Notes under the pieces: generated by a model
Told to the model about the DNA's origin: nothing
Database searches by the model: none
Seen by the model: the letters and a program-made list of their open reading frames with translations, nothing else
Origin: Actinomucor elegans
Taxonomy: Eukaryota; Mucoromycota; Mucoromycetes; Mucorales; Mucoraceae
Length of the DNA: 64,000 bases
Direction of reading: 5' to 3'
NCBI GenBank assembly: GCA_026027325.1
Contig: JAMSLZ010000004.1
Span: 682,001 to 746,000 of the forward strand
Shown: piece after piece, positions 1,840 through 54,077 of the stretch
How the letters are laid out: each line of letters opens with the position of its first letter
How positions within the stretch are numbered: the stretch's first letter is position 1
Program-made: the position numbers and the translations under genes

Positions 1840-4800
1840 ATGGGCAAAGTTTCCTCTTCTGCTACACCATATAAATATACTTGCGCTACTTGTTTGAGGC
1901 CATTCAAAACTGTTAAAGCTAGGAGTAATCACTATAGCCATAATCGTGATCATAGAAAACAAAGGGTCGTCCAAAGAGCAACGTTAAAAATAAAAAAAAA
2001 TAAAAATTAGTTTTTAAATTAAATAGTGTTTTTTGTAATTATATTTTTTTTTGTTTAACACTTTTTTATTGTAATTTTTGAAAGTTTGGTAATTAACGTA
2101 AAAATAAGAAATTGCAATAATTATGCAAAACTTATAAAGATTAAACTTTTATATTACTTTTCAATACAATTAAACTTTTTTTTTTCATAATATTTCACAC
2201 CAGATCGAAACCCTGTTGTGCGACAATTTTTTTCTTTTAAAATTGATTAAAAAGCACGCCGTAAGTTTTTTAGCAACTTACAACTTGATAAATAAAGAAA
2301 GCTATATAATTTTAATTTAATAATATGAAAATAATTATAATATATATATTAATTATTAATGATATGTAATGTAGCTCAAACGCAAGAAGCTAGCATTCCT
2401 GTCCAAGGTGAGTTAACAGATATATTACTAAAGCTTTTAATTTAACAATATACCTTGTTTGAAATAGAGCCTACTCCAATTGCTTACAACGTCAAATCCT
2501 CGGATCAAAACCTTTTCACCAATACGGAATTAAATAGCATCCAATTGAGAGATATTTGCGACACGTATGGTATTCCTCGAGAGGCTCAAAGAGAACTTGT
2601 CTATCTAATGCGTACCATAATCAAAAACAATGAAGAGAGCCGTAAAACCGATGGATTGGGTATGTATCTATTCAAATAGAGTTAAAAAAAAAGTACTTAT
2701 CAGCTTTTATTCCCATTATATATAGGTTACCTACCATCCACTCTCATGTTCCCTGATACCTTGGATCGTACTCTTAAAGCAAAAACCAATATTCAATGTC
2801 ATTTTCATGATGTCTGCGTCAATGGTTGCATGCTGTTTGAAAAGGAAGATATAGAGACTATTCAATGTAAAAACCCTGCTTGTAAAGAAAATCGCTTTGA
2901 TGATCATGGTAAACCTCGTCGCTCTATGAAGATGCTTCCTATTGGTGAACAAGTCGCTCAAATGCTTGCGAATGCAAAGACAAGAGACTTGATGAAATAC
3001 CGCTACAACTATAAATCAACTGACGGTGAATATAAAGATTACTTTGATGGTGCAGCATACAAGTACTTTAAGGATAATAGCATTCTGTTTTCCGGTGAAG
3101 ATGATGTCGCAATGGTTCTTTTTGTCGATGGTTTCTGTACTAGCAAGAATCATAAAGGGGACAAGTTAACAATCATCCATCTCTTGAATATGAACATTCC
3201 CCCAGAATACCGCTACCAAGACGAATACATGCTTCAATTGGCGATCTTGCCAGGTCCAAACTACCCAAAGTACATGCATACCTTTTTAAAGCCTATTATT
3301 GATGAGTTTCATGCTCTGTCTACCAAAGGCATGCTTGTACAAAAGGATGGTGTAATTGTTTGTCAAGCTAAAGTCAACTTGGTGATGGCCACTGGTGATC
3401 TTCCTGCTGCAGCTGAGCTTGCAAATCATATTGGTCATATGGCTACGTTTGGTTGCCGTATTTGTCGTGTCCAAGCTGAACGTCATGATTATCATAATTG
3501 TTTTTTAACGATCGACAATGAGATCAGAAGCAGAAACGATTTCATTTCCCCAGATGCAGCGAATGTAAGTACTATAATCAGCATTAATCTTTACAAAGTT
3601 TTTAACATTTCTTTTTCTTTTTACCTCATAGAGCTACAGTATCAAGTCTGCAACACCATTTGCAATACTTCCCAGTTTTACTGGCGCTACTTTTTTTGGT
3701 TTAGACGAAATGCATCTTCTCGGACAAGGTATCGCTCAACACGTATTCAATATGCTGACAGTCGACATGGGTAAAGAGTACAATGCAGCAAGAAAAACTC
3801 GATATAAGCCCAATGAAGATGAATTGAGTGATGCCCGATTGAAGTCTGCTGATGAATGGCCGTATACTTTCTATATTCCAAAATTATCGCTCATCAAAAT
3901 TGGTAAACTTGTTGAAGCTTCTAGAGCCACTGTACCGACATCCTTTTCATCCAAATGGGAAGATCCAATTATCAAGAGTGGTGGCAAACGTGCTGTTGAC
4001 TGGATTGATATTTTCTTATATATGATTCCTACCTTGTTCGTTCCTGAATTGATTCAAGAATCCGCTAAGAAACCATTGATTCATCTGACAAAAGCTGTCG
4101 CATTGGCTCTTAAATGGGAACTTTCTATTGAAGACCTTATTCTGATGGAAAGGTAAATATATTTTTTTTGTACTCATAAATCTAGTTTACTTACATACTT
4201 TCCAAAGATATATCAAAGAATGGCAAGAATTTTTGTTGGCAGAAATCAAGGCAAAGCGTATTCATTCCGGTGTATTCAAGCCTGTTCAACACTACCTTTC
4301 GCATATAGTCTATATGATCAAACAACAAGGTGTGTTGAGAGCATATTCCGCCCGATCAATGGAAAGAAGCATCGGAAAATACAAAAAGCTCATCAAGTCA
4401 AAGGTTGATGCTGGCGCAAACGCTGGTAATATCTTGGAAAGACTCATAACGCGTAATCATATAAACAGCCAGACTTGGGATGTTCATACTGAGCTTGACC
4501 TGATCACTCCTCGAAAATACAGCGAATCCACTTTCAGGAATAACCCTTCTGGTGATGCTAGTGATCCACAATTATGGGCTCCCTTTAGTAATATTTCAGT
4601 GGATACTCTTCCCTTTGGTGTCTCCACTCAAACTTTTTTGAAGGCGCTATTGCATTACTATCGCCGTACTGAAGCAAATGGTGTAAATATTGCTGAAATT
4701 GATTCGTTGAATAGTATTTCCATCGCTGGTCGTGCCTGGGCATATGGCAATGTATATACGTCTACCATGTATAAAAGCCATATAAATGAATATCGTCGAG

Positions 4801-15530: not shown

Positions 15531-16085
15531 TATTGTGACATTTCAGTATCGCTATCACCGGTAACGTCTTCACCAGATGGCAAAGCACCAGAACTACGGA
15601 ATGCAAAAGCAGCCTTCTTGGGATCCTTTTCGGCAAGACGAGAGCGAGCTTCCTTAATGGCTTGATCAAGATCACCATCATCAATCCATCCAAGTTCCAC
15701 AAAGGAGCGACCAACAGAAGGGACCATCACTGGTCGAATGAACGCCAGAGTGCTGATACAGCGAGAGTGAACGAGGTTAGCCATCTCGTTTTCACGAGCA
15801 TTGGCTGAGAGAGAAGCATACTTGGGGTCAGCAAGATGGGCTGGGTTTAAAGGATCAAAATCCTTAATGAACTCAGCTTCAGCCGTAGTCATAAGCTCGG
15901 TAAACTTTTCAACATACTGCGTATGTATCAGGACACCAAGGACACCAGTGGCAGGGAAACAGACATCTAACACACGACCAGTGTCAACACCAGCGCGACG
16001 TAACCGAGAGCGGACTTCAGTACGATCAAGTTTGCGGGATCGACCAAGATAAACATAGGTAAAACCCTGAGGACCCTGGGCCTCA

Positions 16086-16306
16086 GATAAACATTTACAA
16101 CTACTTAATATTTTTAACTTTCCTAAAAAATCAAGGCATAAATATAATGTTGCCTTTTTATCCATAAATAAAATGTTGGTTACTTGTTCTATTTTAGAAT
16201 AAAATTTATTTATATTATTATTTGTATTCAAAAAAATCTATTATTTCCTAATTTTTTTATATATTGTACTATTTTGAACATATTTCTGTAATACTAAATG
16301 TTCTTC
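16086..16306 (+). repeat. Left 221-bp terminal direct repeat (LINE A copy)
   Basis: Matches 18367-18587 in direct orientation. It borders the transposase 3' end; 11 bp separate the repeat from the transposase stop at 16318. Confidence 0.92.
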
Positions 16307-16317
16307 TTATTAATTGA

Positions 16318-17752
16318 TTAATTATTTTCTATTGATTTCCAATAATTCAAAATAGTATCATGTGATGTAAAATCTTTTCTTTTACCCATGAATTATGTTC
16401 TTTACCATACTTTTTCCATTTTACAAAATATTCATATAAGTTCTTTACTTTTTTGTGTTTAATTATATATTGTATTTCATATATATTTTGATCATTATTA
16501 CTAGTGATATCTTCCTCCATTTGATCCATAATATCTATATTCACTTCATTTATATTTAAATTATTTAAAAATTGATTTTGTAATGATTTTATATCAACGA
16601 TATTTTCTATTTTATATTGTGTTTTTAATGTTACTTCTTTATTCATTTCAATATTATTTTATAATAATAATCAAAATTATCATTTAGCCATTTGTTGTAA
16701 TGGGCATTTTCTTCAATTCCAAATAACTCTGTAAAATATTTTATGTTCAGTAATACTATTGCTAATTTTAGCTGTATATTATATGTCTTATTATCTGTTA
16801 TTCTAATCTTATTTTGTCCACTAAATCTTTTAAAAATACTACCTAATTCTGCAAAATATTTTTCTATTTTTGACCTTAATCCACCTAATTCTTCATTGAA
16901 TTTTTTTTCATCTATGGTTAATTCAACTCCTTTATCTTTTTTTATAGGATAGCAAAAATTTTTCAAGGATATATTAAATCCAATATTACTAAATTTTTCT
17001 ATAAATTCTTTTACTGTGTTTTCATATAATCCATCAAAACATATACAATCTATTTCATTATAAAACTTATTGATATTTATGTCTAAAAGCATTTTATCAT
17101 CAGTATTATTTCTACAAGGTAAGGAATCAGATATATAAACACATATTCTATTAATATCTATAATAAATTGTGTATTTAATCCATTTCTTTTTAATTTATA
17201 CGAGAATAACTCTTTTTTATCTAGATTAATATCTTGATATGTTATACGATTATGGTGACCATCAATTAGTAATGTTACATTATCTAACATCATTGGATTA
17301 AATTTCTTAGCACAAAGTAATCTCAATGTATGTGTAGAAAAACATTTTTCTAATTTATTATTTATCCATTTTTCCAATAAATCATAATTATTTATATATA
17401 ATGATTGATATAATTTATAAAAACTAGTAGATGGAATATACATTTCCATTTCATTTATAGATTTTCCATTTAATAAATGTTCTAATAATATCAATACTTT
17501 ATCTGCTGTTATATATGGACCTGGTAGTTTTATATTGTTACATAAATCTGTCAAAAATACAAATGGAGCAATACTTCCTAATTTAATATATATATTTTTT
17601 TTAATTCTATCAATATTTGGTATACTCGTTATTTTAGATCTATGATATTTCAATTCAACTTTATATATATATTCATTTTTCATAAATTTCCAATACCTAT
17701 TGTAAATATTTCTGTATTCATTTTCAATTAATAAGTCTATATGAGTGTTCAT
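16318..17752 (-). pseudogene. DDE_Tnp_4 (Harbinger-like) transposase with C-terminal chromodomain, frameshifted
   Basis: Start chosen at the ATG at 17752 (MNTHIDLLIENEYRN), which aligns with the start of the homologue at 51266. The DDE core shows the first Asp in VTLLIDGHHNRI, then NTQFIIDINRICVYISDSLPC, the second Asp in CFDGLYENTV, and the Glu in GLRSKIEKYFAELG. The C-terminus is a chromodomain (YEIQYIIKHKKV ... YFVKWKKYG ... NSWVKEK). Two single-base T-run differences from the LINE B copy break the frame, near 16660 and 16375. Because the LINE B copy is open at those places, sequencing error is possible. Confidence 0.85.
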
Positions 17753-17842
17753 AAACAAATAAAATGATGTATTTTTATATAAAGAGAAATTCAATTTTTA
17801 ATATTTTCTATATTTAATAAACTTTTATTTATATATGAAAAT

Positions 17843-18211
17843 TCAATTTTTAATATTTTCTATATTTTCCAAGAACTTATGATTTCTTTTTGCATAATCT
17901 AACCATGATTTAAAATTATAAATTTCTTTAATACTAACATATCCTTTTCTTAAACACCAGGATTTGAAATATTCATTTCTAACTTTTTCGTTATCATCTA
18001 AAATTGTTTTTATCACTAAATTGGCATGGATATTTGTATTGTTTTCACCAACATCATAGAAAGGACCACTATATAAAATTTTATCAATATTTTTTATATT
18101 TCCAACCCATTGCAGTATTTTCTTGTTTAATATTTCGGATGATTTATTCTTGACATCTTTTTTTTCAGGATTTAGAGTTAAAACCACAGCATAATAATAG
18201 ATTTTTTCCAT
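17843..18211 (-). CDS. Partner ORF of the 221-repeat transposon, unknown function
   Basis: 122 aa from the ATG at 18211 (MEKIYYYAVVLTLNPEKK); the frame is open 13 codons further. It lies upstream of the transposase on the same strand, 90 bp away, and is repeated at 25221-25589 and, diverged, at 63630-63932 beside another chromodomain transposase. That recurrence makes it a genuine element gene. Conserved blocks: YYAVVLTLxPEKKDV, ILYSGPFYD, NTNxHANLVIKT, LRKGYxSIKEI, and in this copy SWLDYAKRN. The order (hydrophobic strand, His-containing strand, then Tyr-x-x-x/Lys helix) loosely recalls a small HUH/Rep endonuclease fold. Only one His of an HUH motif is present, however, so I do not assign that function. 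Confidence 0.7.
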   Translation of the reverse strand: MEKIYYYAVVLTLNPEKKDVKNKSSEILNKKILQWVGNIKNIDKILYSGPFYDVGENNTNIHANLVIKTILDDNEKVRNEYFKSWCLRKGYVSIKEIYNFKSWLDYAKRNHKFLENIENIKN

Positions 18212-18366
18212 TAAATATAATATTGATGTTATTTTAAAAATAATTCTCAAATATTATAGATACTTTTATATTTTCCAAAATATCATGCCAAGAATTAGAT
18301 GCCAAGGAAGTTGTTTTTAGATTTCTCAATGTGATTAAACGCAATGGAAGTCTAAAAATAGGACAA

Positions 18367-18587
18367 GATAAACATTTACAACTACTTAATATTTTTAACT
18401 TTCCTAAAAAATCAAGGCATAAATATAATGTTGCCTTTTTATCCATAAATAAAATGTTGGTTACTTGTTCTATTTTAGAATAAAATTTATTTATATTATT
18501 ATTTGTATTCAAAAAAATCTATTATTTCCTAATTTTTTTATATATTGTACTATTTTGAACATATTTCTGTAATACTAAATGTTCTTC
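18367..18587 (+). repeat. Right 221-bp terminal direct repeat (LINE A copy)
   Basis: Direct repeat of 16086-16306. A 92-codon - strand frame (18512-18234) begins inside this repeat and runs into the unique interior, ending about 23 bp upstream of the partner ORF start. It may be a leader or a further small gene. Confidence 0.92.
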
Positions 18588-19185: not shown

Positions 19186-19199
19186 GGGGATGTAGCTCA
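19186..19199 (+). repeat. tRNA-Ala head at LINE junction (G9 type)
   Basis: GGGGATGTAGCTCA preceded by five more G (nine in all) and no T. The nine-G form is shared with the next three junctions. Confidence 0.9.
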
Positions 19200-19514
19200 G
19201 TTTAAAGATTATATTTTATTAATAAGTAGTTATATGGGCAAACTCTATAGAGCATCTAGCCTAACTATATGAAAAAGTGTTTAATATAAACATAGAAAAA
19301 AGTATAAAAAACCCTGAGAACCACAAGGGAGAAAAAGGTTAAAGACAAGAGCGAGAACCAGTAGACTATTGCAGCTCTGAGTGATCCAAAAGGCAAGCCA
19401 ACAGCTGGGAACTTTGATAATCACTTACCACCGTGGCTGCGCAGTTGAAAGACAAACAGGCTGGTTCATCAATAGAACAGAGAGAAAGAGAGGCTCAATA
19501 AACCAAGGAGAGGT

Positions 19515-22907: not shown

Positions 22908-23462
22908 TATTGTGACATTTCAGTATCGCTATCACCGGTAACGTCTTCACCAGATGGCAAAGCACCAGAACTACGGAATGCAAAAGCAGCCTTCTTGGGA
23001 TCCTTTTCGGCAAGACGAGAGCGAGCTTCCTTAATGGCTTGATCAAGATCACCATCATCAATCCATCCAAGTTCCACAAAGGAGCGACCAACAGAAGGGA
23101 CCATCACTGGTCGAATGAACGCCAGAGTGCTGATACAGCGAGAGTGAACGAGGTTAGCCATCTCGTTTTCACGAGCATTGGCTGAGAGAGAAGCATACTT
23201 GGGGTCAGCAAGATGGGCTGGGTTTAAAGGATCAAAATCCTTAATGAACTCAGCTTCAGCCGTAGTCATAAGCTCGGTAAACTTTTCAACATACTGCGTA
23301 TGTATCAGGACACCAAGGACACCAGTGGCAGGGAAACAGACATCTAACACACGACCAGTGTCAACACCAGCGCGACGTAACCGAGAGCGGACTTCAGTAC
23401 GATCAAGTTTGCGGGATCGACCAAGATAAACATAGGTAAAACCCTGAGGACCCTGGGCCTCA

Positions 23463-23683
23463 GATAAACATTTACAACTACTTAATATTTTTAACTTTCC
23501 TAAAAAATCAAGGCATAAATATAATGTTGCCTTTTTATCCATAAATAAAATGTTGGTTACTTGTTCTATTTTAGAATAAAATTTATTTATATTATTATTT
23601 GTATTCAAAAAAATCTATTATTTCCTAATTTTTTTATATATTGTACTATTTTGAACATATTTCTGTAATACTAAATGTTCTTC
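23463..23683 (+). repeat. Left 221-bp terminal direct repeat (LINE B copy)
   Basis: Direct repeat of 25745-25965; begins GATAAACATTTAC and ends ATGTTCTTC. Confidence 0.92.
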
Positions 23684-23694
23684 TTATTAATTGA

Positions 23695-25130
23695 TTAATT
23701 ATTTTCTATTGATTTCCAATAATTCAAAATAGTATCATGTGATGTAAAATCTTTTTCTTTTACCCATGAATTATGTTCTTTACCATACTTTTTCCATTTT
23801 ACAAAATATTCATATAAGTTCTTTACTTTTTTGTGTTTAATTATATATTGTATTTCATATATATTTTGATCATTATTACTAGTGATATCTTCCTCCATTT
23901 GATCCATAATATCTATATTCACTTCATTTATATTTAAATTATTTAAAAATTGATTTTGTAATGATTTTATATCAACGATATTTTCTATTTTATATTGTGT
24001 TTTTAATGTTACTTCTTTATTCATTTCAATATTATTTTTATAATAATAATCAAAATTATCATTTAGCCATTTGTTGTAATGGGCATTTTCTTCAATTCCA
24101 AATAACTCTGTAAAATATTTTATGTTCAGTAATACTATTGCTAATTTTAGCTGTATATTATATGTCTTATTATCTGTTATTCTAATCTTATTTTGTCCAC
24201 TAAATCTTTTAAAAATACTACCTAATTCTGCAAAATATTTTTCTATTTTTGACCTTAATCCACCTAATTCTTCATTGAATTTTTTTTCATCTATGGTTAA
24301 TTCAACTCCTTTATCTTTTTTTATAGGATAGCAAAAATTTTTCAAGGATATATTAAATCCAATATTACTAAATTTTTCTATAAATTCTTTTACTGTGTTT
24401 TCATATAATCCATCAAAACATATACAATCTATTTCATTATAAAACTTATTGATATTTATGTCTAAAAGCATTTTATCATCAGTATTATTTCTACAAGGTA
24501 AGGAATCAGATATATAAACACATATTCTATTAATATCTATAATAAATTGTGTATTTAATCCATTTCTTTTTAATTTATACGAGAATAACTCTTTTTATCT
24601 AGATTAATATCTTGATATGTTATACGATTATGGTGACCATCAATTAGTAATGTTACATTATCTAACATCATTGGATTAAATTTCTTAGCACAAAGTAATC
24701 TCAATGTATGTGTAGAAAAACATTTTTCTAATTTATTATTTATCCATTTTTCCAATAAATCATAATTATTTATATATAATGATTGATATAATTTATAAAA
24801 ACTAGTAGATGGAATATACATTTCCATTTCATTTATAGATTTTCCATTTAATAAATGTTCTAATAATATCAATACTTTATCTGCTGTTATATATGGACCT
24901 GGTAGTTTTATATTGTTACATAAATCTGTCAAAAATACAAATGGAGCAATACTTCCTAATTTAATATATATATTTTTTTTAATTCTATCAATATTTGGTA
25001 TACTCGTTATTTTAGATCTATGATATTTCAATTCAACTTTATATATATATTCATTTTTCATAAATTTCCAATACCTATTGTAAATATTTCTGTATTCATT
25101 TTCAATTAATAAGTCTATATGAGTGTTCAT
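23695..25130 (-). pseudogene. Chromodomain DDE transposase, one frameshift (copy in LINE B)
   Basis: The N-terminal part (25130 to about 24590) and the C-terminal part (about 24590 to the stop at 23695) are in different frames. A single T is missing from the run near 24593 (five T; the LINE A copy has six at the same place). The C-terminal half is open here through the chromodomain to NYWKSIENN, which gives the natural C-terminus missing from the LINE A copy. The Asp, Asp and Glu positions are the same as in that copy. Confidence 0.85.
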
Positions 25131-25220
25131 AAACAAATAAAATGATGTATTTTTATATAAAGAGAAATTCAATTTTTAATATTTTCTATATTTAATAAAC
25201 TTTTATTTATATATGAAAAT

Positions 25221-25589
25221 TCAATTTTTAATATTTTCTATATTTTCCAAGAACTTATGATTTCTTTTTGCATAATCTAACCATGATTTAAAATTATAAA
25301 TTTCTTTAATACTAACATATCCTTTTCTTAAACACCAGGATTTGAAATATTCATTTCTAACTTTTTCGTTATCATCTAAAATTGTTTTTATCACTAAATT
25401 GGCATGGATATTTGTATTGTTTTCACCAACATCATAGAAAGGACCACTATATAAAATTTTATCAATATTTTTTATATTTCCAACCCATTGCAGTATTTTC
25501 TTGTTTAATATTTCGGATGATTTATTCTTGACATCTTTTTTTTCAGGATTTAGAGTTAAAACCACAGCATAATAATAGATTTTTTCCAT
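25221..25589 (-). CDS. Partner ORF of the 221-repeat transposon (copy in LINE B)
   Basis: 122 aa, identical in predicted sequence to the ORF at 17843-18211. Intact although the neighbouring transposase is frameshifted. Function unknown. Confidence 0.7.
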   Translation of the reverse strand: MEKIYYYAVVLTLNPEKKDVKNKSSEILNKKILQWVGNIKNIDKILYSGPFYDVGENNTNIHANLVIKTILDDNEKVRNEYFKSWCLRKGYVSIKEIYNFKSWLDYAKRNHKFLENIENIKN

Positions 25590-25744
25590 TAAATATAATA
25601 TTGATGTTATTTTAAAAATAATTCTCAAATATTATAGATACTTTTATATTTTCCAAAATATCATGCCAAGAATTAGATGCCAAGGAAGTTGTTTTTAGAT
25701 TTCTCAATGTGATTAAACGCAATGGAAGTCTAAAAATAGGACAA

Positions 25745-25965
25745 GATAAACATTTACAACTACTTAATATTTTTAACTTTCCTAAAAAATCAAGGCATAA
25801 ATATAATGTTGCCTTTTTATCCATAAATAAAATGTTGGTTACTTGTTCTATTTTAGAATAAAATTTATTTATATTATTATTTGTATTCAAAAAAATCTAT
25901 TATTTCCTAATTTTTTTATATATTGTACTATTTTGAACATATTTCTGTAATACTAAATGTTCTTC
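25745..25965 (+). repeat. Right 221-bp terminal direct repeat (LINE B copy)
   Basis: Same orientation as 23463-23683; followed by the TCA target duplication and the rest of LINE B ORF1. Confidence 0.92.
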
Positions 25966-26563
25966 TCAAGGGTTTTGAAGGCGCGAGCAGCGGCTATACG
26001 TTTCTTTAGCGAAACGGCAGCAGGGCGAGAGGGGCGGCTGTCCTTTTTTACAGCGGCTGCAGCAATGGCAGCGAAAGACCGGGCACCATTTTTTTCCTGG
26101 GCGGGAGAAGCGACATCCTGCGGTGGACTACGAGCGGTGGCAGCAGAGAGTTGTGCTCGAAGTTGGTTATTTTCATTAACCAGAGCCTGGTTTTCGGTTT
26201 TGAGTCCAAGAATCTCATTTTTCAAGGTCTGGAGCTCTTCAAATAATGTTTGATGTTGTTGCACTTGTTGAACAAGTGAAAACACCATTTGCTGTAGCTG
26301 CTGGAACTGCATTGGCTGTTGCATTTGGTCCATTGAGCCAGATGGCTCAGATGCATGTTGAACATTGGACATTTCGAAATGGAGAAAAATTCAAGATGTC
26401 GAAAGCTTGATGGAATGTTCTGAAAAAAAAACTGCAGATAGTACTCGGCGAGGCGAAGATGGATGTGCAATTTTTATAGATGGATGTATAGTAGTTGTTG
26501 AGATATTCGGCTTTGAAAAAGTGGATTTTTGAAAAAAGTTTTCAAAAGCGAAAGAAGAGGGGG

Positions 26564-26577
26564 GGGGATGTAGCTCA
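26564..26577 (+). repeat. tRNA-Ala head at LINE junction (G9 type)
   Basis: GGGGATGTAGCTCA inside a nine-G run beginning at 26559; between LINE B (5' end) and LINE C (3' end). Confidence 0.9.
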
Positions 26578-26892
26578 GTTTAAAGATTATATTTTATTAA
26601 TAAGTAGTTATATGGGCAAACTCTATAGAGCATCTAGCCTAACTATATGAAAAAGTGTTTAATATAAACATAGAAAAAAGTATAAAAAACCCTGAGAACC
26701 ACAAGGGAGAAAAAGGTTAAAGACAAGAGCGAGAACCAGTAGACTATTGCAGCTCTGAGTGATCCAAAAGGCAAGCCAACAGCTGGGAACTTTGATAATC
26801 ACTTACCACCGTGGCTGCGCAGTTGAAAGACAAACAGGCTGGTTCATCAATAGAACAGAGAGAAAGAGAGGCTCAATAAACCAAGGAGAGGT

Positions 26893-29800
26893 TTATATAG
26901 TACGAGTAGCAGCAAACCAGGCATCACCAGGATCTGGATCTGGGACGATAGCAGCAAGAGGATGACACAGCGTGTCAATCACATAGAGAATCTCAAGGAG
27001 TGCAGACCAGAAAGGCGGTGGACCATTGGATGCTTTCAAGGGCAACAAGTTCAGGGCATGATCAATGCGATTGACATCTGGCGGAGCAGCAGGTAATTGG
27101 CACAGAAGGCGAGGATCAATGCCACGGCAATTGAACACAAAGTGATCTCGAGAGAGCCGGCAACCAGTGAAACAAGGACACAATTCATCACGGTTAGCGA
27201 AACGGCCTAAGCGCCATCGAACAAGACGACTGCGAGCAGCGCGAGTCATAGGCAGGTACAGTATTGGATCAGGCTTTGAAGTAGAGGGCCGACAAGCACG
27301 CAAAAGAACCGATTTACCAGTGTGAGCAGCAGCAGCCATTTGCTTGTCAAAGAGGTCTTGCCAGTAGCCAGAGAACCAGGACTTGAGACGAGAGGCTGTA
27401 GGTACAGGATTGGGCAATGCCATATGCATAGGATTGAGGTATAGGAGCTTGTTCAATCGAGTGTAGCCAAGACCAGAAGGAGAATTGTCTCGAGAAGAGT
27501 TCAGCAATGATATCAAGCAATCATCCGGAAGCCATTGCGACCGTAGGGCATACTTGGTAACCAGGACATTGTATCGATGCTTCATGGAAGGGATACAAGT
27601 GATGTGCTTCGTGACATTGAACCATCGGGAGCCAACAAACATACCAACTAACCGGTTCTGAAGGTTATCCAAAGCAGTAAAGTCAGCAGCAGAGAGCCTA
27701 GATATAGCAAGACCGTACTCAAACTTGGGCCGAATGAAGGTAGTATATAACCGAGAACAGAGCAAGAGAGAGAAACCATTACGGTTGACACCAACCGAAT
27801 TCAGTAGAGCCATGGTTTTGACTGCACCACCAGACCGTTTAGCCAGGATACCCGGACCATCAAGACCTTTCTTGTTGAATGGCATACCAAGATACGTGAA
27901 CTCGTTCACTGCAGGCAGAGGAACATCATAGAGACTCAGTCTAAAGTTGGTAGACGTAGAGGAGGTCACAGAAGGAGCGTTCAGGACAGCACACTTGGTA
28001 GGGTTCCAACGATAGCCCAGTACTCTTGAATGGTCAGCAGCTAGGTTCAACATATTTTGCACCTCATGTTTGGAGCCAAAGATCGCCACATCGTCGGCAA
28101 ACAGAAGACAGTTAATGGCCACAGCCTCAGCAGATCCAGGAGGAGACACCACAGCAGTAGTATCCGAAGCTTCAGACCGAAGGAGCTCAGGCAAGGAGTT
28201 GATGTACAAAGAGTACAAGTGAGGACTCAACACCGAGCCTTGGAGTACACCAGTGGCAGGGGAGAAAGAGGAAGAGATGTGGTTGGCGATCAATACGGAG
28301 ATGGATACATCATCAAATAGATTGACCAGCAGACCAAGGAGAGGCCGAGGCAGAGATGAATTCTCAAGAGCATTCCAGATCACACATCGATCAACAGTGT
28401 CATAGGCAGCCTTAATATCCAGAAAAGCAACAACAGGATAGTGGTGATGAACCAAGAAGTAGTTGTGCATCAGGTCGTGCAGACAGAGGGCTTGATCCAG
28501 AGGACTACGCATGGGACGGAAGCCACCTTGTGCGAGATCTAGAGGAGGCGAATGGTCATAGACGCTTTGTGCAATGGTAATCTCAAACAACTTACGCATC
28601 ACCGAAGTCAAAGAAATTGGCCTGTAGTTGGCAGGATCAGAAGCATCACCTTTCTTGAAGATAGGAAAGACCTGGGCTTGACGCCATAGAACCGGTGTAT
28701 AGCACCATTGGTAACAAACCTGGAATAGCAAAGAGAGGACAGGAGCAAGTAAATCAGCAACAGCCTTGAGCATTTCAGCTTTTAGATGATCAGGACCAGG
28801 AGCTTTGCGATTCGGCAACTGTTTGATATGCTCAACCAAGGTTTCCACCGAGAAAATCCAAGACACTTCTTCATCAGACACCAGGAAAGGCACTTCTAAA
28901 CCAAAGTCAGGAGCAGCCAGGGGACGAGAAGCAGTTGATAAAAGAGAACCATCATACACTGTAGCCAGGTGTGTAGCCATAGAATCGACTGATGCTTGAG
29001 GGCCATCAGGATGAGCATACGTAGCAGAGGTTTCTTTCCGGCGTTTCAGCCTAGACATGGTCGCAGTGGCCTTGGCAAAGTCCTTTTGGAGTGACATGCA
29101 AAAGTTCTTCCAGGAGAGTCTTTTTGCAGCAGCAACAGCACGACGAAACGACTTGTGAGCTTGCAGATGAAGATGCCAGTAATAAGCCTTGTCAGCACCA
29201 AATGAATGACGCCAACGGCAATAGAGGCGATCACGTTCTCGAGCAGCAGCTTCCAGATCAGCAGTCCAGTACTTCTTCCAATGACCAGGACGAGGAGCCT
29301 TAGACCCAATGGATGCATCCATCGCCTGATAGAGACACTCATTCAGAGATGCATTGAGTGAATCTATAGATGGACGAGTATCCGGAGGAGAACCAACCAG
29401 ACCAGCCAGAGTATCCTTCAAGGGAGCAACCAGACACCGAAACCGAGTATGGAACAGAGCCAAAGGCTCAGACTCAGCCAGCCGACTGAGGTTCCATGTC
29501 CTACGAGGAGCCAGCACCGAAGAGTCACCTACCCCAGAAGAGCCACCAGAAACAGCAATGTACCTGAATCTCAATTGCAGCAGACGATGATCCGAGCCCA
29601 GAGATAGATCAGAAGCCACAGAAAGAGAAGCAGATACCATACCAGAACCACCAATGTTGGTCAAGAACAAATCAATGATACTGCTCGCCACAGCACCATT
29701 TCTAAAGGTACAGTATGTATCAATACCATACGCCAAGGAAGCATTCAACACTGACAGATTGCGTTCTTCAATCCAAGGAAGTAGAGCTTGACCACGAGGA

Positions 29801-36636: not shown

Positions 36637-39600
36637 TTATATAGTACGAGTAGCAGCAAACCAGGCATCACCAGGATCTGGATCTGGGACGATAGCAGCA
36701 AGAGGATGACACAGCGTGTCAATCACATAGAGAATCTCAAGGAGTGCAGACCAGAAAGGCGGTGGACCATTGGATGCTTTCAAGGGCAACAAGTTCAGGG
36801 CATGATCAATGCGATTGACATCTGGCGGAGCAGCAGGTAATTGGCACAGAAGGCGAGGATCAATGCCACGGCAATTGAACACAAAGTGATCTCGAGAGAG
36901 CCGGCAACCAGTGAAACAAGGACACAATTCATCACGGTTAGCGAAACGGCCTAAGCGCCATCGAACAAGACGACTGCGAGCAGCGCGAGTCATAGGCAGG
37001 TACAGTATTGGATCAGGCTTTGAAGTAGAGGGCCGACAAGCACGCAAAAGAACCGATTTACCAGTGTGAGCAGCAGCAGCCATTTGCTTGTCAAAGAGGT
37101 CTTGCCAGTAGCCAGAGAACCAGGACTTGAGACGAGAGGCTGTAGGTACAGGATTGGGCAATGCCATATGCATAGGATTGAGGTATAGGAGCTTGTTCAA
37201 TCGAGTGTAGCCAAGACCAGAAGGAGAATTGTCTCGAGAAGAGTTCAGCAATGATATCAAGCAATCATCCGGAAGCCATTGCGACCGTAGGGCATACTTG
37301 GTAACCAGGACATTGTATCGATGCTTCATGGAAGGGATACAAGTGATGTGCTTCGTGACATTGAACCATCGGGAGCCAACAAACATACCAACTAACCGGT
37401 TCTGAAGGTTATCCAAAGCAGTAAAGTCAGCAGCAGAGAGCCTAGATATAGCAAGACCGTACTCAAACTTGGGCCGAATGAAGGTAGTATATAACCGAGA
37501 ACAGAGCAAGAGAGAGAAACCATTACGGTTGACACCAACCGAATTCAGTAGAGCCATGGTTTTGACTGCACCACCAGACCGTTTAGCCAGGATACCCGGA
37601 CCATCAAGACCTTTCTTGTTGAATGGCATACCAAGATACGTGAACTCGTTCACTGCAGGCAGAGGAACATCATAGAGACTCAGTCTAAAGTTGGTAGACG
37701 TAGAGGAGGTCACAGAAGGAGCGTTCAGGACGGCACACTTGGTAGGGTTCCAACGATAGCCCAGTACTCTTGAATGGTCAGCAGCTAGGTTCAACATATT
37801 TTGCACCTCATGTTTGGAGCCAAAGATCGCCACATCGTCGGCAAACAGAAGACAGTTAATGGCCACAGCATCAGCAGATCCAGGAGGAGACACCACAGCA
37901 GTAGTATCCGAAGCTTCAGACCGAAGGAGCTCAGGCAAGGAGTTGATGTACAAAGAATACAAGTGAGGACTCAACACCGAACCTTGGAGTACACCAGTGG
38001 CAGGAGAGAAAGAGGAAGAGATGTGGTTGGCAATCAACACGGAGATGGATACATCATCAAATAGATTGACCAGCAGACCAAGGAGAGGCCGAGGCAGAGA
38101 TGAATTCTCAAGAGCATTCCAGATCACACGTCGATCAACAGTGTCATAGGCAGCCTTAATATCCAGAAAAGCAACAACAGGATAGTGGTGATGAACCAAG
38201 AAGTAGTTGTGCATCAGGTCGTGCAGACAGAGGGCTTGATCCAGAGGACTACGCATGGGACGGAAGCCACCTTGTGCGAGATCTAGAGAAGGCGAATGGT
38301 CATAGACGCTTTGTGCAATGGTAATCTCAAACAACTTACGCATCACCGAAGTCAAAGAAATTGGCCTGTAGTTGGCAGGATCAGAAGCATCACCTTTCTT
38401 GAAGATAGGAAAGACCTGGGCTTGACGCCATAGAACCGGTGTATAGCACCATTGGTAACAAACCTGGAATAGCAAAGAGAGGACAGGAGCAAGTAAATCA
38501 GCAACAGCCTTGAGCATTTCAGCTTTTAGATGATCAGGACCAGGAGCTTTGCGATTCGGCAACTGTTTGATATGCTCAACCAAGGTTTCCACCGAGAAAA
38601 TCCAAGACACTTCTTCATCAGACACCAGGAAAGGCACTTCTAAACCAAAGTCAGGAGCAGCCAGGGGACGAGAAGCAGTTGACAAAAGAGAACCATCATA
38701 CACTGTAGCCAGGTGAGTAGCCATAGAATCGACTGATGCTTGAGGGCCATCAGGATGAGCATACGTAGCAGAAGTTTCTTTCCGGCGTTTCAGCCTAGAC
38801 ATGGTGGCAGTGGCCTTGGCAAAGTCCTTTTGGAGTGACATGCAAAAGCTCTTCCAGGAGAGTCTTTTTGCAGCAGCAACAGCACGACGAAACGACTTGT
38901 GAGCTTGCAGATGGAGATGCCAGTAATAAGCCTTGTCAACACCAAATGAATGACGCCAACGGCAATAGAGGCGATCACGTTCTCGAGCAGCAGCTTCCAG
39001 ATCAGCTGTCCAGTACTTCTTCCAATGACCAGGACGGGGAGCCTTAGACCCAATGGATTCATCCATCGCCTGATAAAGACACTCATTCAGAGATGTATTG
39101 AGTGAATCTATAGGTGGACGACTATCCGGAGGAGAACCAACCAGACCAGCAAGAGTATCCTTCAAAGGAGCAACCAGACACCGAAACCGAGTATGGAACA
39201 GAGCCAAAGGCTCAGACTCAGCCAGCCGACTGAGGTTCCATGTCCTACGAGGAGCCAGCACCGAAGAGTCACCTACACCAGAAGAGCCACCAGAAACAGC
39301 AATGTACTTGAACCCCAACTGAAGCAGCCGATGATCAGAGCCCAAAGACAGATCGGATGCCACAGAAAGAGAAGGAGACACCATACCAGAACCACCAATG
39401 TTGGTCAAGAACAAGTCAATGATACTGCTCGCCACAGCACCATTTCTGAAGGTACAGTATGTATCAATACCATACGCCAAGGAAGCATTCAACACTGACA
39501 GATTGCGTTCTTCAATCCAAGGAAGCAGAGCTAGACCACGAGGATTTGTTGCAGAATCACCAGTAAGATCACCAAGGCGTGCATTGAAGTCACCGCAGAT

Positions 39601-43488: not shown

Positions 43489-45786
43489 CTAGACAGAAGG
43501 AGCGAAGAACCAGGCATCACCAGGATCTGGATCTGGAGCGATAGCAGCAAGAGGATGACACAGCGTGTCAATCACATAGAGAACCTCAAGGAGTGCAGAC
43601 CAGAAAGACGGTGGACCATTGGATGCTTTCAAGGGCAACAAGTTCAGGGCATGATCAATGCGATTGACATCTGGCGGAGCAGCAGGTAATTGGCACAGAA
43701 GGCGAGGGTCAATGCCACGGCAATTGAACACAAAGTGATCTCGAGAGAGCCGGCAACCAGTGAAACAAGGACACAATTCATCACGGTTAGCGAAACGGCC
43801 TAACCGCCATCGAACAAGACGACTGCGAGCAGCGCGAGTCATAGGCAGGTACAGTATTGGATCAGGCTTTGAAGTAGAGGGCCGACAAGCACGCAAAAGA
43901 ACCGATTTACCAGTGTGAGCAGCAGCAGCCATTTGCTTGTCAAAGAGATCTTGCCAGTAGCCAGAGAACCAGGACTTGAGACGAGAGGCTGTAGGTACAG
44001 GATTGGGCAATGCCATATACATAGGATTGAGGTATAGAAGCTTGTTCAATCGAGTGTAGCCAAGACCAGAAGGAGAATTGTCTCGAGAAGAGTTCAGCAA
44101 TGATATCAAGCAATCATCAGGAAGCCATTGCGATCGTAGGGCATACTTGGTAACCAGGACATTGTATCGATGCTTCATGGAAGGGATACAAGTGATGTGC
44201 TTCGTGACATTGAACCATCGGGAGCCAACAAACATACCAACTAACCGGTTCTGAAGGTTATCCAAAGCAGTAAAGTCAGCAGCAGAGAGCCTAGATATAG
44301 CAAGACCGTACTCAAACTTGGGCCGAATGAAGGTAGTATATAACCGAGAACAGAGCAAGAGAGAGAAACCATTGCGGTTGACACCAACCGAATTCAGTAG
44401 AGCCATGGTTTTGACTGCACCACCAGACCGTTTAGCCAAGATACCTGGACCATCATACACTGTAGCCAGGTGTGTAGCCATAGAATCGACTGATGCTTGA
44501 GGGCCATCAGGATGAGCATACGTAGCAGAGGTTTCTTTCCGGCGTTTCAGCCTAGACATGGTAGCAGTGGCCTTGGCAAAGTCTTTTTGGAGTGACATGC
44601 AAAAGTTCTTCCAGGAGAGTCTTTTTGCAGCAGCAACAGCACGACGAAACGACTTGTGAGCTTGCAGATGGAGATGCCAGTAGTAAGCCTTGTCAACACC
44701 AAATGAATGACGCCAACGGCAATAGAGGCGATCACGTTCTCGAGCAGCAGCTTCCAGATCAGCAGTCCAGTACTTCTTCCAATGACCAGGACGGGGAGCC
44801 TTAGACCCAATGGATTCATCCATCGCCTGATAGAGACACTCATTCAGAGATGTATTGAGTGAATCTATAGGTGGACGACTATCCGGAGGAGAACCAACCA
44901 GACCCGCAAGAGTATCCTTCAAAGGAGCAACCAGACACCGAAACCGAGTATGGAACAGAGCCAAAGGCTCAGACTCAGCCAGCCGACTGAGGTTCCATGT
45001 CCTACGAGGAGCCAGCACCGAAGAGTCACCTACACCAGAAGAGCCACCAGAAACAGCAATGTACCTGAATCTCAATTGCAGCAGACGATGATCCGAGCCC
45101 AGAGATAGATCAGAAGCCACAGAAAGAGAAGGAGATACCATACCAGAACCACCAATGTTGGTCAAGAACAAATCAATGATACTGCTCGCCACAGCACCAT
45201 TTCTAAAGGTACAGTATGTATCAATACCATACGCCAAGGAAGCATTCAACACTGACAGATTGCGTTCTTCAATCCAAGGAAGTAGAGCTTGACCACGAGG
45301 ATTTGTTGCAGAATCACCAGTAACATCACCAAGGCGTGCATTGAAATCACCGCAGATAATACTATCAGAGTGCAGAGGCAGTGAGTTGAGAGAAGAGAGC
45401 ACCAGATCACGAGAGAGACTGGGTGGAAAGTAGACACAATGCACATTGACTTTGTCAACCTTGATCGACAGAGTATATGCATTGTAAGACGGAAGTTGAG
45501 AGACAGTAAAAGGACAGTGAGGAGAGATGAGAGCAGTGACACCACCTGAGCCACGTCCATTGGCATTAGTGACAGTTTGACCGTACAGATGATATTGAGA
45601 CCAATCGGTAGGGATCAACCCAGAGGTAAGCCAAGTTTCAGTAATCAAGAGGATATCACAAGAGAGAGCATGAGAGAGTACATCATGGATAGTAGTGACC
45701 CGAAGGCCATTGGCATTCCACAGTGCAAGAGAAAAGGAGCGGACGGGGGTATCAGAAGGAGTGAAAGGAGGGACTGAAGATGTCAT
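43489..45786 (-). pseudogene. LINE G ORF2 with in-frame deletion of the reverse transcriptase core
   Basis: 765 codons, open from start to stop, but 364 codons (1092 bp) are missing between LATVYDG and PGILAKRSGG at about 44455. The lost part includes all catalytic reverse-transcriptase motifs (KAPGPDHL through FADD). The endonuclease domain and the C-terminal knuckle remain. The breakpoint lies at ACCATCA, which occurs at both ends of the missing segment in intact copies, so the deletion probably arose by short direct-repeat recombination. Confidence 0.9.
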
Positions 45787-47930: not shown

Positions 47931-50681
47931 GTTTAAAGATTATATTTTATTAATAAGTAGTTATATGGGCAAACTCTATAGATCATCTAGCCTAACTATA
48001 TGAAAAAGTGTTTAATATAAACATAGAAAAAAGTATAAAAAACCCTGAGAACCACAAGGGAGAAAAAGGTTAAAGACAAGAGCGAGAACCAGTAGACTAT
48101 TGCAGCTCTGAGTGATCCAAAAGGCAAGCCAACAGCTGGGAACTTTGATAATCACTTACCACCGTGGCTGCGCAGTTGAAAGACAAACAGGCTGGTTCAT
48201 CAATAGAACAGAGAGAAAGAGAGGCTCAATAAACCAAGGAGAGGTTTATATAGTACGAGTAGCAGCAAACCAGGCATCACCAGGATCTGGATCTGGGACG
48301 ATAGCAGCAAGAGGATGACACAGCGTGTCAATCACATAGAGAATCTCAAGGAGTGCAGACCAGAAAGGCGGTGGACCATTGGATGCTTTCAAGGGCAACA
48401 AGTTCAGGGCATGATCAATGCGATTGACATCTGGCGGAGCAGCAGGTAATTGGCACAGAAGGCGAGGATCAATGCCACGGCAATTGAACACAAAGTGATC
48501 TCGAGAGAGCCGGCAACCAGTGAAACAAGGACACAATTCATCACGGTTAGCGAAACGGCCTAAGCGCCATCGAACAAGACGACTGCGAGCAGCGCGAGTC
48601 ATAGGCAGGTACAGTATTGGATCAGGCTTTGAAGTAGAGGGCCGACAAGCACGCAAAAGAACCGATTTACCAGTGTGAGCAGCAGCAGCCATTTGCTTGT
48701 CAAAGAGGTCTTGCCAGTAGCCAGAGAACCAGGACTTGAGACGAGAGGCTGTAGGTACAGGATTGGGCAATGCCATATGCATAGGATTGAGGTATAGGAG
48801 CTTGTTCAATCGAGTGTAGCCAAGACCAGAAGGAGAATTGTCTCGAGAAGAGTTCAGCAATGATATCAAGCAATCATCCGGAAGCCATTGCGACCGTAGG
48901 GCATACTTGGTAACCAGGACATTGTATCGATGCTTCATGGAAGGGATACAAGTGATGTGCTTCGTGACATTGAACCATCGGGAGCCAACAAACATACCAA
49001 CTAACCGGTTCTGAAGGTTATCCAAAGCAGTAAAGTCAGCAGCAGAGAGCCTAGATATAGCAAGACCGTACTCAAACTTGGGCCGAATGAAGGTAGTATA
49101 TAACCGAGAACAGAGCAAGAGAGAGAAACCATTACGGTTGACACCAACCGAATTCAGTAGAGCCATGGTTTTGACTGCACCACCAGACCGTTTAGCCAGG
49201 ATACCCGGACCATCAAGACCTTTCTTGTTGAATGGCATACCAAGATACGTGAACTCGTTCACTGCAGGCAGAGGAACATCATAGAGACTCAGTCTAAAGT
49301 TGGTAGACGTAGAGGAGGTCACAGAAGGAGCGTTCAGGACAGCACACTTGGTAGGGTTCCAACGATAGCCCAGTACTCTTGAATGATCAGCAGCTAAGTT
49401 CAACATATTTTGCACCTCATGTTTGGAGCCAAAGATTGCCACATCGTCGGCAAACAGAAGACAGTTAATGGCCACAGCCTCAGCAGATCCAGGAGGAGAC
49501 ACTACAGCAGTAGTATCTGAAGCTTCAGACCGAAGGAGCTCAGGCAAGGAGTTGATGTACAAAGAATACAAGTGAGGACTCAACACCGAACCTTGGAGTA
49601 CACCAGTGGCAGGAGAGAAAGAGGAAGAGATGTGGTTGGCAATCAACACGGAGATGGATACATCATCAAATAGATTGACCAGCAGACCAAGGAGAGGCCG
49701 AGGCAGAGATGAATTCTCAAGAGCATTCCAGATCACACATCGATCAACAGTGTCATAGGCAGCCTTAATATCCAGAAAAGCAACAACAGGATAGTGGTGA
49801 TGAACCAAGAAGTAGTTGTGCATCAGGTCGTGCAGACAGAGGGCTTGATCCAGAGGACTACGCATAGGACGGAAGCCACCTTGTGCGAGATCTAGAGAAG
49901 GCGAATGGTCATAGACGCTTTGTGCAATGGTAATCTCAAACAACTTACGCATCACCGAAGTCAAAGAAATTGGCCTGTAGTTGGCAGGATCAGAAGCATC
50001 ACCTTTCTTGAAGATAGGAAAAACCTGGGCTTGACGCCATAGAACCGGTGTATAGCACCATTGGTAACAAACCTGGAATAGCAAAGAGAGGACAGGAGCA
50101 AGTAAATCAGCAACAGCCTTGAGCATTTCAGCTTTTAGATGATCAGGACCAGGAGCTTTGCGATTCGGCAACTGTTTGATATGCTCAACCAAGGTTTCCA
50201 CCGAGAAAATCCAAGACACTTCTTCATCAGACACCAGGAAAGGCACTTCTAAACCAAAGTCAGGAGCAGCCAGGGGACGAGAAGCAGTTGACAAAAGAGA
50301 ACCATCATACACTGTAGCCAGGTGAGTAGCCATAGAATCGACTGATGCTTGAGGGCCATCAGGATGAGCATACGTAGCAGAAGTTTCTTTCCGGCGTTTC
50401 AGCCTAGACATGGTGGCAGTGGCCTTGGCAAAGTCCTTTTGGAGTGACATGCAAAAGTTCTTCCAGGAGAGTCTTTTTGCAGCAGCAACAGCACGACGAA
50501 ACGACTTGTGAGCTTGCAGATGGAGATGCCAGTAATAAGCCTTGTCAACACCAAATGAATGACGCCAACGGCAATAGAGGCGATCACGTTCTCGAGCAGC
50601 AGCTTCCAGATCAGCTGTCCAGTACTTCTTCCAATGACCAGGACGGGGAGCCTTAGACCCAATGGATTCATCCATCGCCTG

Positions 50682-51082
50682 GAGCAACGTTAAAAATAAA
50701 AAAAATAAAAATTAGTTTTTAAATTAAATAGTGTTTTTTGTAATTATATTTTTTTTTGTTTAACACTTTTTTATTGTAATTTTTGAAAGTTTGGTAATTA
50801 ACGTAAAAATAAGAAATTGCAATAATTATGCAAAACTTATAAAGATTAAACTTTTATATTACTTTTCAATACAATTAAACTTTTTTTTTTCATAATATTT
50901 CACACCAGATCGAAACCCTGTTGTGCGACAATTTTTTTCTTTTAAAATTGATTAAAAAGCACGCCGTAAGTTTTTTAGCAACTTACAACTTGATAAATAA
51001 AGAAAGCTATATAATTTTAATTTAATAATATGAAAATAATTATAATATATATATTAATTATTAATGATATGTAATGTAGCTC
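50682..51082 (+). repeat. Left 401-bp terminal direct repeat
   Basis: Lies upstream of the transposase gene and so may carry its promoter. A 183-bp unique spacer (51083-51265) without a further gene separates it from the transposase ATG. Confidence 0.93.
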
Positions 51083-51265
51083 TTATATAAAAATTGCTCT
51101 TTGTTTTTGATTCATAGTATCAATTTTTATTTTTTTTTTGCCAAATGTTTGAATGTTTAATATTAAAATAATTATAATTATAATCATTTCTGTAACATTA
51201 ATTCAAACTCAATTACTTTTTTCTAAAAAATTGAATTATTATATAAATAAAAATAAGAACATCTT

Positions 51266-52717
51266 ATGACAATTGAAATAGAGGAACTATTAGAAAATGA
51301 ATATGAAGAGATTAAAACAAATTATTGGAAATTTTTAGATAATACATATAAATCTAATATTGAAAAACAATATCATAGAAGTAAAATAGGAAATTTTATT
51401 AACATTCAAAATATAAAAAAAGAATTATATGAACTATTAGGTGCAATTCCTATATTTGTATTTTTAACAGAAATTTGTAGTAAAATTAAAATGCCATCAC
51501 CAGTATATAATGTAGAAAAAGGAATTTTGATTTTAAAATTATTAGTAGATGGTTGTTCCATTAATGATATGAAAATTTATGATGAGAATGATTCTTTTTA
51601 TAGAATTTATAAATCTGTTTTTATTGATAATATAGATTTTTTAGAAAATTGGGTTAATAATACGATGTTTTATTGTTTTAGCAACAGCATTACTAGATTA
51701 TTATATAGTAAATTATACAATCCTAAAAATTTTGAACATTGTACATTACTTTTAGATGGAAGACATAATAGAATAGTAATTGAAGATATTGATTTAAATA
51801 AAAAAGATTTATATTCTTATAAATTAAAGAAAAATGCATTAAACACCCAATTTATTATAGATTCAGCAGGATATATCATCTATGTTTCAGAATCATTACC
51901 GTGTAAATTTAATAATGACGATAATATGTTTATTAATAATATAAATTTAATGAAATTTTTTAAACTAACAGATTGTTTATGCTATGATGGATTGTATGAA
52001 AATGTATTAGATGAAATTTTAAAAAAATATAATAATGTAGGATTACATATTACAGAAAATAACTTTTGTTTTCCAATAAAAAAAGAAAAAAATATTGATT
52101 TAGATGTTGATGAATTAAATTTTAATAAACAATTAGGATCATATAGAAGTACCATTGAAACTTTTTTTGCAAAATTTTCAAATATATTCAAAAGATTTAG
52201 CTACAAAGCCAATGCAAGAATTACAAAAGAAAAAACATATAACATTCAGATTAAATTAGCATTAGTTTTATTTAATATCAAAAACTTTGTAGAAAATAAT
52301 AATATAGAAGAAAAATCTTATTATAAACTATGGATGGAAAAAGATTTTGATTTTTTTGATACTATTAAGGATTTTAATATCGAAACTAAATCAATAAAGG
52401 CGGTATATAAAAAAGAAAATATAATGAATATGAAAAGTTTACAGGATGATCTTCTAAATAAACTTTTATCTGATAATAATTTTAAAATCAGCTTAACTAA
52501 AAATAAAATGCAAATTGATAATGATGATAATAATACTAGTACTGATAAAAATGTATATGAGATACAATATATAATACAACATAGAAAAATAAATAATGAA
52601 TATGAATATGAGGTAAAATGGAGAAATTATAAAAAACAAGTAAACAGTTGGATTAAAGAAAGTGACTTTCAAACAAAAGATATTCTAAAGAATTATTGGG
52701 ATTCTATCAATGTCTAA
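51266..52717 (+). CDS. DDE_Tnp_4 (Harbinger-like) transposase with C-terminal chromodomain, intact
   Basis: 483 aa, predicted nuclear cut-and-paste transposase. Start ATG at 51266 (MTIEIEELLENEYEE). The catalytic core fits the DDE_Tnp_4 pattern: first Asp in LLLDGRHNRI (about 171), FIIDSAGYIIYVSESLPC (about 198-215), second Asp in CYDGLYENVL (about 240), then FPIKKEK. The motif FNKQLGSYRSTIETFF (about 284-299) contains the Glu. The C-terminus (about 424-481) is a chromodomain: VYEIQYIIQHRKI, YEYEVKWRNYKKQ, NSWIKESDF. Chromodomains bind methylated histone tails, so target choice or binding to heterochromatin is a reasonable inference. Homologues are the frameshifted copies in LINEs A and B and the remnant at 62397. 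Confidence 0.88.
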   Translation: MTIEIEELLENEYEEIKTNYWKFLDNTYKSNIEKQYHRSKIGNFINIQNIKKELYELLGAIPIFVFLTEICSKIKMPSPVYNVEKGILILKLLVDGCSINDMKIYDENDSFYRIYKSVFIDNIDFLENWVNNTMFYCFSNSITRLLYSKLYNPKNFEHCTLLLDGRHNRIVIEDIDLNKKDLYSYKLKKNALNTQFIIDSAGYIIYVSESLPCKFNNDDNMFINNINLMKFFKLTDCLCYDGLYENVLDEILKKYNNVGLHITENNFCFPIKKEKNIDLDVDELNFNKQLGSYRSTIETFFAKFSNIFKRFSYKANARITKEKTYNIQIKLALVLFNIKNFVENNNIEEKSYYKLWMEKDFDFFDTIKDFNIETKSIKAVYKKENIMNMKSLQDDLLNKLLSDNNFKISLTKNKMQIDNDDNNTSTDKNVYEIQYIIQHRKINNEYEYEVKWRNYKKQVNSWIKESDFQTKDILKNYWDSINV

Positions 52718-53118
52718 GAGCAACGTTAAAAATAAAAAAAAATAAAAATTAGTTTTTAAATTAAATAGTGTTTTTTGTAATTATATTTTTTTTTGTTTAA
52801 CACTTTTTTATTGTAATTTTTGAAAGTTTGGTAATTAACGTAAAAATAAGAAATTGCAATAATTATGCAAAACTTATAAAGATTAAACTTTTATATTACT
52901 TTTCAATACAATTAAACTTTTTTTTTCATAATATTTCACACCAGATCGAAACCCTGTTGTGCGACAATTTTTTTCTTTTAAAATTGATTAAAAAGCACGC
53001 CGTAAGTTTTTTAGCAACTTACAACTTGATAAATAAAGAAAGCTATATAATTTTAATTTAATAATATGAAAATAATTATAATATATATATTAATTATTAA
53101 TGATATGTAATGTAGCTC
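52718..53118 (+). repeat. Right 401-bp terminal direct repeat
   Basis: Starts on the base after the transposase TAA (52715-52717). Contains a potential structured core: hairpin GTAAGTT/AACTTAC (53002-53008 with 53016-53022) and a stem CAATTTT/AAAATTG (52965-52971 with 52980-52986) enclosed by GTGC/GCAC (52959-52962 with 52995-52998). Confidence 0.93.
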
Positions 53119-54077
53119 CTGATAAAGACACTCATTCAGAGATGTATTGAGTGAATCTATAGGTGGACGACTATCCGGAGGAGAACCAACCAGACCAGCA
53201 AGAGTATCCTTCAAAGGAGCAACCAGACACCGAAACCGAGTATGGAACAGAGCCAAAGGCTCAGACTCAGCCAGCCGACTGAGGTTCCATGTCCTACGAG
53301 GAGCCAGCACCGAAGAGTCACCTACACCAGAAGAGCCACCAGAAACAGCAATGTACTTGAACCCCAACTGAAGCAGCCGATGATCAGAGCCCAAAGACAG
53401 ATCGGATGCCACAGAAAGAGAAGGAGACACCATACCAGAACCACCAATGTTGGTCAAGAACAAGTCAATGATACTGCTCGCCACAGCACCATTTCTGAAG
53501 GTACAGTATGTATCAATACCATACGCCAAGGAAGCATTCAACACTGACAGATTGCGTTCTTCAATCCAAGGAAGCAGAGCTAGACCACGAGGATTTGTTG
53601 CAGAATCACCAGTAAGATCACCAAGGCGTGCATTGAAGTCACCGCAGATAATAGTATCAGTGTGAAGAGGCAGTGAGTTGAGAGAAGAGAGCACCAGATC
53701 ACGAGAGAGACTGGGTGGAAAGTAGACACAATGTACATTGACTTTGTCAACCTTGATCGACAGAGTATATGCATTGTAAGACGGAAGTTGAGAGACAGTA
53801 AAAGGACAGTGAGGAGAGATGAGAGCAGTGACACCACCTGAGCCACGTCCATTGGCATTAGTGACAGTTTGACCGTACAGATGATATTGAGACCAATCGG
53901 TAGGGATCAACCCAGAGGTAAGCCAAGTTTCAGTAATCAGGAGGATATCACAAGAGAGAGCATGAGAGAGTACATCATGGATGGTAGTGACCCGAAGGCC
54001 ATTGGCATTCCACAATGCAAGAGAAAAGGAGCGGACGGGGGTATCAGAAGGAGTGAAAGGAGGGACTGAAGATGTCA

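Follow-up and report, generated by a model that had tools for sequence, protein, structure and literature searches.

The autonomous units of PIF/Harbinger transposons are bounded by simple terminal inverted repeats (TIRs). They are also associated with a Myb-like DNA-binding domain or protein (PMC6850418). A different plan, LTDR-INT-LTDR, in which an internal region (INT) lies between two long direct repeats, is given for KolobokP, of the Kolobok superfamily and from seven animal phyla, by Kojima and Bao (2022; PMC9587614). According to these authors, the LTDRs are of about 450 or 660 bp and are suggested to be excisable alone, the transposase is a zinc-finger Kolobok protein, accompanied by a His-Me nuclease in most families, multimers are common, and KolobokP is called unlike any other DNA transposon. 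Among the publications listed by our literature searches, there was no further DNA transposon with the direct-repeat plan.

Here we analyse an element from a 64,000-nt stretch of the genome of the fungus Actinomucor elegans (the window, at its full length), in which two direct repeats (R) flank an internal region with a transposase gene. Its family is designated F0, and F1 to F7 are seven further families from which at least one copy was read. As in KolobokP (PMC9587614), INT contains a DDD/E transposase and is placed between long direct repeats with short TIRs, and solo repeats are flanked by target site duplications (TSDs). Relative to KolobokP, F0–F5 differ in their DDE_Tnp_4-type transposase, with a chromodomain in F0, in their fungal host, in the size of R (220–401 bp) and in the 3-bp TSD, whereas neither a nuclease (domain scan) nor multimers (0 in 20 copies) were found in F0. 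The preliminary description of the locus, which knew of no family with this structure, is to be amended here, since KolobokP has long direct repeats, TIRs of their own and solos (PMC9587614). F0 would work like KolobokP but does not belong to that lineage. What is new is the paired-end plan in a second transposase family, in a fungus and separate from the animal case.

The DDE_Tnp_4-type transposase (E 2e-9 in F0), which we take to be a link to the PIF/Harbinger superfamily, and the 3-bp TSD (18/20 copies) are likenesses to that group. Unlike PIF/Harbinger, F0–F5 have long direct repeats instead of simple TIRs, with inverted arms only in F6 and F7, F0 has a C-terminal chromodomain, and the TSD triplet is variable; a domain scan of five of the transposases gave no Myb hit. 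In size and TIRs, R resembles a Tourist-like MITE, such as the 246-bp mJing (PMC6850418). The arrangement also recalls bacterial composite transposons, including IS26 pseudo-composites, in that two direct mobile modules take a central segment along; the differences, following the comparison made in PMC9587614, are that here the modules are non-coding, the transposase is central and the arrangement is recurrent in a lineage.

Structure of the element in the window

The F0 element and other relevant features of the window are as follows:

50679..50681, strand not applicable: left TSD, CTG
50682..51082, + strand: R1, 401-bp direct terminal repeat with short TIRs GAGCAACGTT / GAGCTACATT
51083..52717, + strand: INT, internal region of 1635 bp, which starts with TTA and stops with TAA
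51266..52717, + strand: transposase of 483 aa, DDE_Tnp_4 with C-terminal chromodomain (residues 431–479)
52718..53118, + strand: R2, second 401-bp direct repeat
53119..53121, strand not applicable: right TSD, CTG
39013..39132, + strand: target site without the element, in a further copy of the host repeat (LINE E of the preliminary description), matched by the joined flanks
1976..2377, + strand: solo R of F0, TSD AAA
60629..61028, − strand: solo R with haplotype CGGG, absent from full copies, flanked by TTG/TTG
16086..18587, − strand: F1 element with 221-bp direct terminal repeats, TSD TCA
23463..25965, − strand: second F1 copy, within a duplicated segment of 99.95 % identity

The two repeats, previously described as 401 bp long and in the same orientation, are indeed both on the + strand and 99.5 % identical, differing only in two homopolymer lengths. 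The whole R-INT-R unit spans 2437 bp and, as had been proposed, is flanked by CTG and has an empty counterpart at 39013–39132 (100 % over 120 bp); in all, six matches span the joined flanks without the element, the other two listed for the window being 44770–44889 (99.2 %) and 14514–14633 (95 %). The short inverted ends attributed to each repeat are present, although imperfect (8/10 matching).

The 483-aa protein between the repeats was correctly recognized as a DDE_Tnp_4 transposase (E 2e-9); it also contains a Chromo domain (E 9.1e-6), and nothing else passed the curated cut-off in a Pfam-type domain scan. Neither a reverse transcriptase (RT) domain nor a long second ORF was found in INT with the ORF list and the domain scan, the only other INT frame of at least 60 aa being one of 69 aa opposite the gene. 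The protein groups with the DDE_Tnp_4 (Harbinger-like) proteins, and residues D164, D241 and E298, invariant across an alignment of 39 proteins, are likely its catalytic triad. An AlphaFold2 model (mean pLDDT 83.6) matched HP1/CBX chromodomains (1kna, rmsd 1.1 over 51 columns, Foldseek E 0.027; best E among chromodomain matches, 0.0025), with no solved transposase among its best 50 Foldseek matches.

Copies of the family in the genome

We made the copy count suggested in the preliminary description in the source genome (36.5 Mb in 27 contigs) by an end-pattern search, whose counts are lower bounds because one of its listings gives 100 of 131 matches. F0 comprises at least 89 complete repeats, at least 20 full R-INT-R copies (18 paired by end pattern plus two with one altered end) and at least 50 solo R. 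Only one single-ended copy was seen (L056), which is truncated at the 5′ end and broken inside the gene. Among the matches listed, there were no (R-INT)n-R multimers in the 20 full copies, and the genome census revealed no excision product, INT-only copy or intact INT with one R.

The inner junctions are constant over the 20 full copies, with a one-base exception in L048, whereas the outer flanks differ. Exact 3-bp TSDs flank 18 of the 20 full copies and six of the seven solos read; the exceptions are L046, with a 4-bp duplication, the full copy of contig C24, with no duplication and unlike flanks, and solo sC1, with 2 bp. Uninterrupted matches to the joined flanks were found for seven of the 20 full copies (C1a, C1c, C3c, C3d, C10, C11b and the window copy) and for three of the seven solos. 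The R-INT-R unit thus inserts with a 3-bp TSD.

The left flank of the C24 full copy is common to that of C10. The starts of these two contigs (L051 and L058) have in common an old solo and the left flank of a full copy, with unlike right flanks, and the contig ends likely recombined through the element. Some contig-start solos, such as those of C10 and C24, share flanks and are therefore not independent, looking like duplicates of one insertion.

Related families with direct or inverted ends

A search of the genome with the transposase gave 89 matches, and 88 of 408 candidates were scored. The transposases of F1–F5 are 42–49 % identical to that of F0, and all these families share the direct-repeat plan, with repeats of 220–292 bp. 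F1 (nine loci, plus the window copies) has 221-bp direct repeats in 9/9 loci and a 3-bp TSD at nine of ten distinct sites, L034 being without it. The repeats and TSDs of the others are of 239 bp with ACT in F2, 220 bp with AGA in F3, 223 bp with CTT and TCT in F4, and 292 bp with AGT in F5. By spacing, F1 yielded 14 pairs and 12 other matches, plus a weak one of 84 % (40 of 101 candidates scored), F4 yielded four pairs and five unpaired or partial matches (13/13 scored), and F5 four pairs and seven others (15/15 scored). The repeats of F0–F5 have similar ends, of the type GAGaaACGtt (looser in F1 and F5), and little else in common, with pairwise z values against shuffles of 0.4 to 4.0, highest for F2/F4.

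The remaining two families, which are more distant, are inverted, so that not all related transposases come with the direct plan. F6 has 207-bp inverted arms, and its 28 arms form 14 inverted pairs, with no solos among them. F7, with TSD TAT, is also inverted, each arm holding a unit with its own inverted ends of 66–71 bp, and might be an intermediate between the TIR and paired-end plans. The F7 copy (L065:660-3064) is GC-richer, and in each of its arms a MITE-like unit is accompanied by a further 137 bp of inverted repeat. The preliminary description had named, as a refuting outcome, relatives with simple inverted ends and a chance pair or artefact here; this outcome was not obtained, since F1–F5 have direct repeats, and inverted ends were read in F6 and F7.

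In a FastTree phylogeny of 39 proteins, rooted by choice on P0052/P0053, F0–F5 fell inside one group of 32 (support 0.999) in which the direct plan was read for these six, with F6 and F7 outside. The simplest reading of this tree, which is not proof, would be that the direct plan was gained once and then retained.

INT starts with TTA, TTG, TTA, TAA, TAG and TGG in F0 to F5, respectively. The INT triplets adjacent to R1 and R2, which have the length of the TSD, are reverse-complementary in F0, F2, F3 and F4 (TTA/TAA, TTA/TAA, TAA/TTA and TAG/CTA), and not in F1 (TTG/TAA) or F5 (TGG/TAT). F1 also contains a second ORF of 122 aa (L030:1036-1401; also in L031 and L034), with 12 relatives at 46–99 % identity. 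Its product has a predicted ferredoxin-like fold and invariant residues H62, N64, Y106 and K108, and Pfam and fold matches were without clear assignment; fold and residues are, in our estimation, possibly reminiscent of HUH Rep/Y1 nucleases. The two F1 copies of the window lie one each in 5.6-kb segments (14001–19622 and 21378–27000) that are 99.95 % identical and in the same orientation.

Proposed movement of the unit and identity of its repeats

The architecture, the TSDs and empty sites, the copy numbers, the variants shared by R1 and R2 and the recurrence of the plan in six families were observed. Their best reading, to which we assign a probability of about 0.72, is that F0 is a composite-like class II transposon, R-INT-R, with transposable ends, whose two repeats stay identical through recombination. 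A composite of MITE-like repeats, or a transposon with transposable ends, had already been suggested and gains support from the five related families with the same plan. The DDE and chromodomain transposase encoded by INT would have the short inverted ends of R as its substrate: pairing of the outermost ends would move the whole unit and generate the 3-bp TSD, whereas a lone R would be moved as a MITE by pairing of its own two ends. Recurrent R1–R2 recombination, either by gene conversion or by collapse to a single-R form and re-formation, would keep both repeats identical, and these LTR-like direct repeats would evolve in concert without reverse transcription. Counting against this reading are the absence from the census of excision products, INT-only copies and intact INT with one R, and the irregular flanks of L046 and of the C24 copy.

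That the unit could be an artefact of assembly, or that two MITEs came by chance to lie on either side of the gene, was foreseen in the preliminary description, and pairing by chance is conceivable since R occurs alone in at least 50 places. This is hardly credible given 20 copies with constant inner junctions, 18 of them with their own exact TSD, and five more families with the same plan and different R, which argue against both chance and artefact. Identical direct repeats, solos and variants shared by R1 and R2 are also hallmarks of LTRs, and could indicate a TRIM-like LTR element carrying a transposase gene and moving through RNA with a borrowed reverse transcriptase. LTR retrotransposons have a TGG-type primer site just after the 5′ repeat, whereas only one of the six families (F5) has a TGG-type start of INT; additionally, the TSD is of 3 bp and INT contains neither an RT domain nor a long second ORF. 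The ends of R are GAG..CTC and not TG..CA, which is given as the rule for LTRs in PMC9587614, and altogether we deem an RNA route very unlikely.

The 20 full copies form two groups of ten, alpha and beta, between which INT differs at five sites and R at four, and within either group there are no INT substitutions. At three of the diagnostic R sites, R1 has the same base as R2 in 20/20 copies, and at the fourth in 19/20 (there is a gap in one repeat of C1c), and retyping of three of the four sites by pattern agreed in 40/40 repeats (20 of each type); as alpha and beta are near-clonal, these 20 concordant pairs represent two lineages and not 20 independent events. Each of the four R changes is present in both repeats of a copy. 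Likewise, R1 and R2 are identical in seven of nine F1 loci, with slight differences in L034 and L036, in F2, in F3 and in both F4 copies read, while in F5 three of four pairs are fully identical to the query and the C7 pair is 98–99 % identical. The sharing of diagnostic variants by R1 and R2 in every full copy suggests that some process homogenises them, apparently faster than substitution.

This (near-)identity in six families whose R differ could also be produced by an R-INT circle with one R, both termini of which are nicked at their 3′ ends. Gap filling after strand transfer would rebuild R on each side, in a counterpart of the LTR cycle that uses only DNA and gives two identical repeats per transposition. 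Frequent unequal crossover should yield multimers, of which there were none in the 20 F0 copies, and in a circle the inner triplets of four of the six families would extend the inverted repeat of R by their 3 bp. Nevertheless, we observed neither a circle nor an intact INT inserted together with only one R, the triplet pattern was noticed post hoc and fails in F1 and F5, and gene conversion is enough to account for the identity, so that a circle seems improbable to us. If true, it would explain the identity of R1 and R2 in six families without multimers as well as the presence of direct terminal repeats in DNA transposons of two groups that are unrelated.

More serious, if still rather doubtful, is the possibility that R is immobile alone and that all solos are recombination products of full copies. 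There are 57 unpaired right ends, of which 13, mostly of an older variant, were untypable and 44 were typed at three sites, including the truncated L056. The other 43 typed ends comprise 13 of the alpha type (CGA), one of the beta type (TAG) and 29 with solo-only haplotypes (12 CGG, 12 TAA, 4 CAA and 1 TGA), which none of the 40 paired repeats has. The coincidence of CGA in ten full copies and 13 unpaired ends is as expected from recombination, and the unlike flanks of the C24 copy indicate that recombination between copies occurs. Recombination alone sits poorly with CGG and TAA, each with 12 unpaired ends and no full copy, and with beta, with ten full copies (TAG) and a single typed unpaired end. 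TAA and CAA resemble intermediates on the way from the older variant to beta or alpha, and may be left over from full copies of earlier age, whereas CGG looks like a solo-only branch; even so, the solo-only haplotypes could derive from older full copies, every one of which has collapsed by recombination. We favour, without proof, that R moves by itself, which would help to account for the excess of solos over full copies; the absence of solos among the 28 arms of F6, which have no second end, fits such movement of lone R in F0.

The occurrence of the plan in a second transposase family, where it recurs down to about 42 % protein identity and, in F0, lacks a detected nuclease, suggests that it may arise repeatedly and that a KolobokP-type nuclease is dispensable. 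How a DNA transposon maintains the identity of its two direct repeats can now be addressed in a compact system of 2.4 kb and one gene. The transposase frame is broken in nine of the 20 full copies despite the lack of INT substitutions within each haplogroup, by small indels in runs that are perhaps residual long-read errors, and the near-identical F0 copies look recently active.
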